Below are positions 46,845 to 51,926 of a stretch of DNA of 52,063 nucleotides, piece after piece. The notes below the pieces were generated by a model that did no database searches, was not told the DNA's origin, and saw only the letters and a program-made list of their open reading frames with translations. The DNA comes from a bacterium (GTDB lineage Bacteria; Zixibacteria; MSB-5A5; WJJR01). The position numbers and the translations under genes were made by a program. Within the stretch, counting starts at the first letter, position 1. Each line of letters begins with the position of its first letter. The stretch covers positions 1-52,063 of the forward strand of contig JAKAKI010000067.1 in NCBI GenBank assembly GCA_021813505.1, in the 5' to 3' direction.

Positions 46845-48883
46845 TCAGTAGCTGTAACAGGGCGGAATCACCCTGCCGTACGAAGCTGCCCCCAGCGTCC
46901 GGAGGTAGTCAATGATGTCGGCGTCCTTGTCGCCGTCGGTATCCGCAACGCGCCTATCCAAAACTGGTGCCGGCCCATGACGGAAGCAATATTCCTCCAT
47001 CTTGCGCACGTCCACGGTGTCAATCCGCGCATTGTTGTCAACGTCGCCGCGGATTACTGAAAGCAGGGCGCGGTAAGCGTTCGCGAGTCCGTAACCGAAA
47101 ACCGTGTCGAAACCCGGCAGGGTATCGGCCCCCCAGTCTACCGCTGAGCCTTCCACAATTCTCCGGATGACACGAGGGAGAGTGTCGTTGCCTAGCAAAT
47201 CGTGGTAAAGGGTGTCGAAGTCGGTTCGACGGGCCAAGACAAGCGCGGCGATTCCGGCGACCTGAGGAGTCGCTCCCGAGGTTCCACTCATGACATTCGT
47301 GTAATCTGAATTCCCCGGACCCCAGGCCACCTGCGGATTCCATCCGAGAATTCCAACGCGATCGGTCGTCCACTGGTCACCCTGAAGTCCCTTGTAGCCG
47401 CTGGGTGCGACAACATCTAAAGTCGGGCCTTGGTTACTGTAATCCCAATGCAGACCATATCTGTCTATCGCGCCTACGGCAATGACCTGCTGCATGATCG
47501 CAGGAAACTGCACGAGGGGCAGCTGAGTTTCACCGTCGTTACCTGCCGCGAATACCATCACACAGCCACGGCAAGCTGGCGCATCCTTCGTCGTCCCACT
47601 ATGACATGAGTCGACGACTTCTTCAATCGCATCCGCAATCGTTGCAACCCACGGAATGCCCACGACGCCCCAACTGCAGGAGATGACCCGAGCGCCGTGC
47701 GTCGCAGCCCAGCGGATCGCGTCAGAGTAGACCCACGGATGCTCTTGAACATCGGGCCAGATGTGAAGAATCGAATCATCCGATACCTTAATTGGCAGAA
47801 ACCGGCAACTTCCCATTATGCCCATAATACCCTGTAGATCGTGTCCAGCACCTATGATTCCAGCACAGGCCATACCATGACCCTGTTGTCGTCCGGCAGA
47901 AGGATCGTAGTCAGGTCGCAGCCCGTAGGGAGGGTACCAATTCTCACCGACAAAATCGTATCCCTGCATGACCCGCGCGCCAGGAAACTCAGGATGCGTC
48001 TCCATGCCCACGTCGATCACTGCCACAATGAGTGATGAGTCAAGTAAAGGAATCATCCAAGCGGAGTCCGCATCAATATCGACATCAAGTGCTCCGTAGG
48101 GGTCTCCTGTGTTCTCGAGATAGTACTGATAACCGAAGAGTGGATCGTGTCCGTCCGACTGAGGGGTGGCCACTGCAGAAAACGTAGCGCTGGCCCAGAT
48201 TGTCTCGTCGAGCGAGTGTAACCGGTTCACGTACTCAAGTGGACTCCCTCTAACAGTGTCGTCGAGAGCACAACGCCATAAGCCATGAACAATAGTATTT
48301 GAATCAACAACATGCAGCGCCACGGTCTTCAGTAACGTCATCATCGAGTCTACGGTCAAGTCTGGCTTAAACCGAACGTCGATGACATCGGTATACTTTA
48401 GCTCACCCGAATAGGGAGGTGAGAAGTACACCGGAACAACACGGTGCACTGCCGAATCGCCGAGAAGGTCGGCCGACGCGCTGGAGTAATTCCAGCTCGC
48501 CTCCAGACTGTACGCCGCGAAACCTCGATGAAGGGGCTCAATAGTAGCCCGGGCATTGAGGCACGGGTGTCTAGAGGCTATCCCAAAATTCACTTTCGGC
48601 GCTCTGGCACGCAGTTTGCTAAACCAGTCTTCATAGGTGAGGTGACCTGGCCAGCCGACTCGATCCCACCCAGAATTCGATTTTTGGGATGAGTTCTAGA
48701 AAGAAAGTCATCGCCGGCCATGGTGATCCTTGAAGAGTCGAGTTGAATTACGATCCGTTCTGAAGATATGGTGACAGGAAACGACTTGTCCTTGTAATAG
48801 AAAGAACCATCGGCTCGGGCCGGTCCTGCATTGAGACAAAACATGCAGGTGATCAACAAGGCAAGTAGCTCATACTTATTCAT
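46845..48883 (-). pseudogene. secreted subtilisin-family protease with dockerin, interrupted by a 119-bp insert
   Basis: ATG 48883 (GAGAGG nine bases upstream) opens a signal peptide (MNKYELLALLITCMFCLNAG) and a propeptide (SSERIVIQLDSSRITMAGDD). Reading frame is lost at 48576-48694 where a MITE-like insert sits between two TCTAGA copies. Removing insert plus one TCTAGA restores a continuous frame reading DDFLSR-HPCLNARAT, just as in the paralogous stub at 50453-50775. The rest is an S8 domain: LIVAVIDVGMETHP (Asp), QQGHGMACAG (His), VFAAGND, VMSGTSGATPQVAG (Ser), then dockerin repeats (GDVDNNARIDTVDV, DTDGDKDADIIDY). All catalytic residues remain, so inactivation appears recent. Confidence 0.85.
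48576..48694. mobile_element. 119-bp MITE-like insertion flanked by TCTAGA direct repeats
   Basis: The element lies between TCTAGA at 48570-48575 and TCTAGA at 48695-48700. Its ends are imperfect inverted repeats: left GGCTATCCCAAAATTC, right (reverse complement) ACTCATCCCAAAAATC, sharing the core ATCCCAAAA. It encodes no transposase. The target duplication could be the 6-bp TCTAGA or the CTAG within it; CTAG would fit an IS5-type transposase acting in trans. The ends resemble those of several DDE insertion sequences (inference). The insertion breaks the subtilisin gene; the paralogue at 50.5 kb is the empty site. Confidence 0.72.
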
Positions 48884-48942
48884 ATTGTTCATCCTCTCAA
48901 TTACTGTACTGCCCATGAAGTCCGGCCGAATCTGCCGGACTG

Positions 48943-50076
48943 TCAATCTGGTCTGGGTCCCACTCCCAGGCTTCTCTTAATAACGTAGCGGTCGGACAGT
49001 AGAGTGATGTCTGTAACTGTCAGAGACTCTAGATTAACGATGCACAACGGACCACCTGCGGCACCTGCCCGCGGAGCCACGACCAGTCTTCGGTCACCAG
49101 GTAGAAAGCGCGCCTGTCCACTTGCTGCGACTGGGAGCCCATTGCGATAATCGAGACGCTTGAGAGGTCTGCAATTCGCTAGGTCGAGGATGTCGATGCC
49201 CATAGGCGTCTCCTCGAGGAATGGCCTGCCCGGATCTGTGCACACACCGGTTTTCCCATCGGCGCTAATCTCCAGTTGGCCATTAGGACTGAACATGCGA
49301 TCCCAGAGAAGCGTTTCTCCGGTCAAGACGTTTCCTATAACGAACCAGTAGGAGAGATTTGTCGTGTCAACTGCGATTACGATAACTCGCTCTTCATCTG
49401 GGTGAAGCGTCGCCGCATAAACCGGACAATCACTGCCGGTTCCGATATTGGGTCCAAAATCGCCAGAGATTTCGCCTGTCTCCACATCCGCGATACGCAC
49501 TCTGGCTTCCGCAATGAGAGCGACCTTCGTCCCCGAGGGTGCACCTCCACCTAGGGTGTAACTATCGTTGTATCTTCTAACGGTGGTTCCGTCACTGGTC
49601 CGCAGAACTCTGCTTCCGTTTACCAGCAACTGCCCATTCTTAATTAGCCCTATCCGAAAGCTGGCGTCGGGGCTCTGCCAGACAGTCTGATGCGTTATGG
49701 CATTGATCTTTATGACGTTCCCCTGACTTTGGGGGTCTCCCACGCTGCCGAAGGAAACGTACAGCCACCTTCCGTCGGGTGAGGCCGCCATTTCCCATGA
49801 TGGGGCCGGCAGCGGAATCGAATCGAGCCGTGTGAGACTGTCGGCATCATACACGTACATCTGGCTGAACAGGGAATTGACATCTGTGGAATCTTTCCAA
49901 TAGCTCGCCCCGAGGTAGATGTTGTACTTGGCGGGCCTTGGTTTCGTCGCTTTGCTGCAACCAACCAAGAACATTCCGACGGTGGCCACGGCAAGCACTA
50001 CTGCTCCGATGACGCGAGACCTCCATCCCAAGTAGCTCACCGACTTAAGGCGCGTTATCAACTTGAGGTAAACCAT
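48943..50076 (-). CDS. beta-propeller lipoprotein, copy 1
   Basis: From ATG 50076 (GAGAGGAGT upstream; frame open to 50115) a ~377-residue protein. A long N-terminal leader ends in a hydrophobic stretch and lipobox FLVGCSK (C about residue 40). The rest is a YncE/WD40-like seven-bladed propeller: IYLGASYWKDS, MYVYDADSLTRLDSIPLPAP, MAASPDGRWLYVSFG, YAATLHPDEERVIVIAVD, FLPGDRRLVVAPRAG. Probably an outer-membrane or periplasmic binding scaffold. It precedes the subtilisin on the same strand by 60 bp and forms a duplicated propeller-protease cassette with the genes at 50453-51926. Confidence 0.82.
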   Translation of the reverse strand: MVYLKLITRLKSVSYLGWRSRVIGAVVLAVATVGMFLVGCSKATKPRPAKYNIYLGASYWKDSTDVNSLFSQMYVYDADSLTRLDSIPLPAPSWEMAASPDGRWLYVSFGSVGDPQSQGNVIKINAITHQTVWQSPDASFRIGLIKNGQLLVNGSRVLRTSDGTTVRRYNDSYTLGGGAPSGTKVALIAEARVRIADVETGEISGDFGPNIGTGSDCPVYAATLHPDEERVIVIAVDTTNLSYWFVIGNVLTGETLLWDRMFSPNGQLEISADGKTGVCTDPGRPFLEETPMGIDILDLANCRPLKRLDYRNGLPVAASGQARFLPGDRRLVVAPRAGAAGGPLCIVNLESLTVTDITLLSDRYVIKRSLGVGPRPD

Positions 50077-50452
50077 AGACTCCTCTCTCCGGCTCACACC
50101 TTTTCCACTTTTCAAGCTGGCAGTCGTCGTCTACATTATTCGTGCCTCCTTTCTACAACGAGGCCCGCCCAGGCGCTCCGGGATTGCTTGCGTGCTTTCA
50201 TTGGAGCGCCGGGCGGTTTGGGTTTGTCTCATGCCTTGCCGTGATTGAACGTGCGTGTTCTCTTGCCAGTGCCTGGCACGTGGAGGCGCACTCGTTTAGA
50301 CTGCGCCACGTCATCCATTGCTGTCATTGCCGAAGTTGCTATTGGCATCTTGACGAGGAGCCCTCGGTCGACTGCGATCAATCACAACTTGGATCCCCTC
50401 CTGGTCGGGATCTCATCTCCTCTGCACCACTCGCTGTCAGAACCAATACAAA
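50077..50452. other. intergenic stretch, probably former protease sequence
   Basis: About 375 bp between the propeptide stub and the first propeller gene. No open frame with S8 motifs can be followed, so the catalytic part of this second protease copy has been deleted, not merely frameshifted. Confidence 0.45.
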
Positions 50453-50775
50453 TCAATGCCACGGATATTCCCGATGTCTGCCATATCCATACGACGGCTG
50501 CATAGCGTAGATCCAGTAACCACGGTGCAAGTAGGATGCTTCCACCGAGGCATCCAGGCAGGGATGGGCTGTGAAGAAGTCGCTCTGTGCTTGCATTGTC
50601 CGTGTGGTATCAAACTGGACGGCGATCTTGGAGGACGATGGAATGACGGCGTATATGGAATGACGGCGTATGTTGTGTCTAGGTCACGGTAGAATTCCTG
50701 CGCCAAGGGCCGCGATCCGGAACTCACGGCCCAAATACCGACCGTGAGCAGGACAATCATTATTCTTGTGAACAT
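50453..50775 (-). pseudogene. propeptide stub of a second subtilisin, with 17-bp tandem duplication
   Basis: ATG 50775 (GAGAGG seven bases upstream) opens a signal peptide (MFTRIMIVLLTVGIWAVSSG). The frame shifts at a perfect 17-bp tandem duplication (50638-50671). Removing one unit gives FYRDLDTTYAVIPSSSKIAV, then FDTTRTMQAQSDFFTAHPCL and LHRGYWIYAMQPSY, ending at the stop 50453-50455. This matches the propeptide of the protease at 46845-48883 (IVIQLDSSRITMAGDDFLSR, HPCLNAR, LHRGFAAYSL). No catalytic domain follows. It documents the uninterrupted sequence across the MITE insertion point. Confidence 0.78.
50638..50671. repeat. perfect 17-bp tandem duplication
   Basis: ATGGAATGACGGCGTAT occurs twice head to tail (50638-50654 and 50655-50671). 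Since 17 is not a multiple of three, the duplication shifts the reading frame of the stub gene around it. Confidence 0.9.
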
Positions 50776-50828
50776 GGAAGATCCTCTCATCCTTGTAAAT
50801 GATTTGTATCACTCCTCGGACTTCCCGC

Positions 50829-51926
50829 CTATGGCCGAGGGCCGATGCCCAGGGAACCAATATCCTCTCTTCTGGGAGGGTCGGTCGGCATAGGCCAGAT
50901 CACTCTTTCCAGCGCCATCGAGGTCATGTTGGTCACCAGCAATGGCCCAGCGTCGAAAAAACTCGGATCTGCAGACGGTGCTGTTACTATCCTGCGATCG
51001 CCTGGCAGGAATTTGACCTGAGCTCCTGCTGGAAAGGGGGGAGTGGGTCCGATGAATGACAGTGTCCGAAGGTCGATGACGTGGACCGCTCCTCTTTCTC
51101 CGCGCGCTGGCGATCCCTGGCTGGTTACTGCTGCCAAGTTGCCGTCGCTGCTGATTGCGATCTCGCCCTGCGGACGATAGATGTGATACCTGAATAGAGT
51201 TTGCCCTGTTTCAATGTCACCGATCACAAACCAAGTGTTGCTATCGCTTCCATAGACGCCAACCGCCAGGATTCGCTTTCCGTCCGGATGCAGTCGCGCT
51301 GTGTAGATGTGTGACAACGCAATACCTGACGTGTCGCGAGGCACAAACTGCCCGGTGTCCACACCGTTCGCCACATCGACCACTGTTACGACGGTGTCCC
51401 CCGCCGTTGCGGCGATCTTCGTGCCGGACACCGGACCAAACAGCGGTTTGAGGGTGTCACTGAGATGCCGCAGGAGGGAAGCATCGTCCGAGCTCAGAAC
51501 ATCACGTCCCGCCAGTAAGAGCGTCCCGTTGGCGATGCAGCGCACGCCCCAGAGATCAGAGCGGGTCCATACTGTATGCTTGGTGCGGATGTCAATCTTC
51601 TGGATGACTCGACGTGCCTGGTAGGATATGAATCCGGCGACGTACAGCCACTCCCCATCAGGCGACACATCTAAACTCTCCGTGAAATGTGCCTGCCAGA
51701 TCGAATCGTGGAGCGTCAGGCTGTCGGCGTCGTAGATGTAGATCCGGTTGAACGATGAGTCACCTTGGCCCGCCGCGAGGTGAGTGGCGGGGACATAGAG
51801 GTTGTACTTGACCGGCTTTGGCTTGTCGGGCTTGCTGCAGCCGATCAGGAGTAGGCCGACCCCGATTGCTGCAATGCATCCCAGCATGGTGATACGACCA
51901 ACGATCTCGATGCAATCCCACGACAC
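50829..51926 (-). CDS. beta-propeller lipoprotein, copy 2
   Basis: A 365-residue paralogue of 48943-50076. The longest start is GTG 51926, but GGAG lies only one base before it, so ATG 13 codons later (MLGCIAAIG) may be the true start. Lipobox LLIGCSK precedes KPKPVKYNLYVPATH, IYIYDADSLTLHDSI, VSPDGEWLYVAG, TARLHPDGKRILAVGVY and FLPGDRRIVTAPSAD; both copies end in a GIGPRP/GVGPRP tail. It would be exported and anchored to the envelope. It is followed by the protease stub, mirroring the order propeller then protease in the first cassette. Confidence 0.82.
   Translation of the reverse strand: MSWDCIEIVGRITMLGCIAAIGVGLLLIGCSKPDKPKPVKYNLYVPATHLAAGQGDSSFNRIYIYDADSLTLHDSIWQAHFTESLDVSPDGEWLYVAGFISYQARRVIQKIDIRTKHTVWTRSDLWGVRCIANGTLLLAGRDVLSSDDASLLRHLSDTLKPLFGPVSGTKIAATAGDTVVTVVDVANGVDTGQFVPRDTSGIALSHIYTARLHPDGKRILAVGVYGSDSNTWFVIGDIETGQTLFRYHIYRPQGEIAISSDGNLAAVTSQGSPARGERGAVHVIDLRTLSFIGPTPPFPAGAQVKFLPGDRRIVTAPSADPSFFDAGPLLVTNMTSMALERVIWPMPTDPPRREDIGSLGIGPRP

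Follow-up and report, generated by a model that had tools for sequence, protein, structure and literature searches.

The closest known relatives of the element described here are MITEPsy1 and other IS5-derived MITEs. MITEPsy1 of Pseudomonas syringae comprises ~100 nt without a gene, is listed as 'IS5?' and uses a target of the CTAG/YTAA type; it was found within a gene and its mobility was shown by an entrapment assay (PMC3189936). Members of the IS427 group of the IS5 family, e.g. IS1248 and ISPpa2, mostly produce 2-bp direct repeats (PMC3281130). The window addressed here, i.e. the whole stretch of DNA that was analysed, spans 52,063 nt and represents the entire contig C83 of a 3.89-Mb assembly consisting of 95 contigs. 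It carries a MITE of 123 bp (48574–48696, plus strand), which lacks a transposase gene and is a new family of this known kind. ISs of the IS5 family are ordinary, well-known mobile DNA, and the element breaks no new conceptual ground. It resembles MITEPsy1 in its size near 100 bp, the lack of a gene, the CTAG-type target and the location within a gene, but MITEPsy1 possesses GGAAGGTCTGAAAAAGCC ends and duplicates 4 nt of its target, whereas the 123-bp MITE duplicates TA. With the IS427 group it has ends of ~15 bp and the 2-bp duplication (TA) in common, although the ISs of this group carry a DDE transposase gene and measure ~830–865 bp in all. Like MITEPye1 of Paracoccus yeei it is a MITE of low copy number that was identified from its ends and direct repeats, but MITEPye1 is related to the IS1182 family, resides mostly in intergenic positions and folds strongly (PMC11578231).

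An earlier note on this sequence had described a MITE within a subtilisin propeptide, placing an element of 119 bp between two copies of TCTAGA. The inverted ends of the window element read ATCCCAAAA and TTTTGGGAT, of which ATCCCAAAA is perfect, while 11 of 15 bp match overall. However, the window contains 69 perfect 9-bp inverted-repeat pairs spaced 60–300 bp apart, so the repeat alone is not significant and the finding stands or falls on other copies. The search for copies with the same ends, which the earlier note had proposed, indeed revealed five additional full copies elsewhere in the genome (C5:66531–66653, C91:1498–1620, C92:25210–25332, C31:77857–77979 and C2:37300–37422), and these back the proposed MITE. 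All six copies are 123 bp long, reside on six different contigs in unrelated flanks and have sharply bounded ends. The left terminal inverted repeat GAGGCTATCCCAAAA (48574–48588, plus strand) matches the other end at 11 of 15 positions, is conserved across the copies and resembles an IS end on contig C32. The right repeat (48682–48696), reading GAACTCATCCCAAAA on the minus strand, is identical in 6/6 copies.

Comparison of the copies also defined the boundaries. In the window, TCTAGA is present at 48570–48575 and 48695–48700 with 119 bp in between, as stated in the earlier note. All six copies read ...TA-GA....TC-TA..., i.e. TA adjoins both borders throughout, while the context beyond TA is CTAG in three cases and CTAC, CTAA and TTAG in the others; the target prior to insertion was YTAR in 5/6 copies. 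A duplication of CTA would likewise fit 5/6 copies, and TCTAGA fits only where the target was by chance TCTAGA. Since the bases outside TA vary, TA alone is duplicated in every copy. In the window, the two TA copies are located at 48572–48573, where TA is part of the CTAG target, and at 48697–48698 (neither assigned to a strand). The repeated TCTAGA is thus the duplicated TA extended by fortuitous matches to the GA/TC ends of the element and to the YTAR-type target, and the boundary had been drawn there because the window copy's own target was TCTAGA. Hence, the repeat stands as described, but the duplicated target is TA and the mobile unit comprises 123 rather than 119 bp; the net insertion is 125 bp whichever boundary is chosen.

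The insertion frameshifts a gene for a secreted subtilisin-like protease in its propeptide. The 5' part of the broken gene (48699–48892, minus strand) encodes the signal peptide and the start of the propeptide and is out of frame with the rest. The 3' part (46845–48571, minus strand, within an ORF at 46845–48593) encodes the remaining propeptide, the catalytic domain and a dockerin-like C-terminus. The minus-strand frame that runs into the element stops inside it, yielding an ORF of 118 aa. When the flanks were joined by script without the 125 bp, the frame was restored to a single subtilase of 640 aa, as the earlier note had stated. The junction ...DDFLSR/HPCL... aligns without gaps with no fewer than six homologues, encoded in this genome and within its family, whose frames are open across the site. 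Support for the empty site is accordingly at the protein level, and the homologues, being only 42–48% identical, belong to the same protein family without being strict orthologues. The earlier note had relied on a paralogue at 50.5 kb. This gene (50437–50790, minus strand, six-frame reading) does read SDFFTAHPCL without interruption; being a truncated and frameshifted remnant, however, it is weaker evidence than the intact homologues encoded on other contigs and in relatives. We infer that protease function was lost upon insertion.

Within 50620–50680 the remnant contains two copies of atggaatgacggcgtat in direct tandem, and this duplication of 17 bp probably caused its frameshift. Of note, the genome encodes a family of paralogous secreted subtilases with 44–48% identity (46845–48892 and contigs C2, C31 and C7). 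Both the window subtilase and the truncated paralogue adjoin a gene for a lipoprotein-like beta-propeller protein (48943–50115 and 50829–51926, respectively).

Four of the further copies break ORFs as well, and in all four joining of the flanks restores the frame. The C91 copy interrupts a BNR-repeat protein and the C2 copy an AAA_15 ATPase, and the BNR_2 and AAA_15 matches, respectively, cross the junctions. The C5 copy resides in a gene for a protein with an FTP propeptide motif and the C31 copy in a gene for a protein with a weak SLT transglycosylase match, while the C92 copy is probably intergenic. The copies fall into two subfamilies: A (C83, C5 and C91) without any difference, and B (C92, C31 and C2) with 0–1 base differences. 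A and B are separated by 38 substitutions, mostly located in the middle of the element, and by no indels, corresponding to 31% divergence. Both ends are nevertheless common to A and B: the two subfamilies agree throughout the 23 bp on the right and at 18 of the initial 20 bases. Despite this divergence both subfamilies have kept the length of 123 bp and were freshly amplified in one genome. This could reflect a single transposase that cross-mobilises two old MITE lineages under a constraint on length or end spacing, an idea that we regard as rather doubtful. The earlier note had called the transposon active. The identical copies document recent, but not current, transposition, and "recently active" is thus the appropriate term.

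The same end-pattern search also matched the ends of contigs C32, C41 and C77, in agreement with the earlier suggestion to look for an IS with matching ends. These contig ends carry GAACCTATCCCAAAA adjoining TA. The first 127 bp are common to C41 and C77, beyond which the sequences diverge; inward from TA, GAACCTATCCCAAAAATGC is followed by a start codon and MAWQRLTDRQWEAIKPH. Contig C32 begins with ERTNAWLQNFRRLVVRYERKVLVFLALVHMACALIALKRILG and a stop codon and ends in TTTTGGGATAGGTTC adjoining TA. The encoded C32 peptide matches the last 37 positions (222–258 of 258) of NF033580 (NCBIfam, IS5 family transposase) with E=1.2e-10, and it also matches IS5 transposases on plasmids. The body of the IS is absent from the assembly, which retains only ends and transposase termini at the three contig ends. 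A profile search with PF13340 for the N-terminus of the IS returned nothing significant, and PF01609 matches elsewhere in the genome belong to other elements. Judged from these termini, the natural reading is an IS5-family IS present in several copies, the interior of which dropped out of the assembly. The genome would thus provide a clean case in which an assembly retains the MITE copies yet loses the helper IS.

This IS5-family, IS427-like IS is the likely helper of the MITE. Its placement in the IS427 group, likewise probable, is based on the TA duplication, the ends and transposase fragments rather than on a complete transposase. Similarity between the MITE and the candidate IS is confined to the ends, reaching 15–16 of 19 bp at best, and no internal IS sequence is recognisable in the MITE. 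This imperfect match would suit a scenario in which the MITE was moved by another IS5-family element that is missing from the assembly and whose ends are closer to GAGGC/GAACTC, the IS at C32, C41 and C77 being no more than a cousin. We consider this possible, but unlikely, as no other IS with such ends was found in the genome at ≤3 mismatches and the other DDE_Tnp_1 transposases (C47, C51, C26, C69 and C5) are devoid of such paired ends. As far as sequence comparison can tell, the MITE almost certainly borrows an enzyme of the IS5 family.

According to our model, an IS5-family transposase would bind the ~15-bp GARNYYATCCCAAAA ends and insert the 123-bp unit at YTAR-like sites. Together with this unit, the TA duplication left behind gives the net insertion of 125 bp, which in the window frameshifts the subtilase gene in its propeptide. 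We hold this overall reading with high confidence. The sequences directly show the copies, their ends, the duplication and the broken frames as well as the matching IS ends and transposase termini, whereas we infer the identity of the mobilising transposase and the recent activity. Being short, non-coding and equipped with inverted ends, the element might be no transposon at all but a repeat of the REP/BIME or RNA-hairpin type, yet this is very improbable: it folds no better as DNA than shuffled sequences (z -0.67 to -0.99) and has no match in Rfam, all six copies are flanked by TA duplications and 5/6 reside in reading frames. Equally negligible is an in-frame protein-coding palindrome tolerated by the host protein as known for Rickettsia RPE, for although one frame (minus strand, offset 1) is open in A and B alike, the net insertion of 125 bp shifts the frame every time, the host frame runs into a stop within the element and the substitutions are distributed 11/10/17 over the codon positions with no clear concentration at one. 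A coding function of the element was rejected; its open frame gave no Pfam match.

No copy of the MITE was found in a class-wide search of 131 genomes, nor in plasmids and phages. The amplification consequently looks recent and lineage-specific. It would document that a burst of MITE transposition recently inactivated genes in a lineage that is known here from a 95-contig draft alone. Pattern searches across the class and the phylum for the ends and for the left end of the MITE gave nothing convincingly related outside this genome. A GTDB scan with the end pattern detected IS5-type elements in Nitrosocosmicus, which have similar ends and different interiors. Full-length representatives possess GAGCCTATCCCAAAATTCG ends with TA adjoining both and encode a DDE_Tnp_1 transposase, and a related IS of Deinococcus has GAGATCATCCGGAAATT ends, which likewise adjoin TA. 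The Nitrosocosmicus elements (L059, L083 and other loci) are ~1 kb in size, contain two consecutive ORFs and occur in several genomes, often at contig ends. The scan also uncovered MITE-like elements that lack a transposase and have GAGCCYATCCCAAAA ends and different interiors, in one Kerfeldbacteria and one Acidobacteria MAG (L071, 164 bp, L066 and L081; L072, 138 bp).
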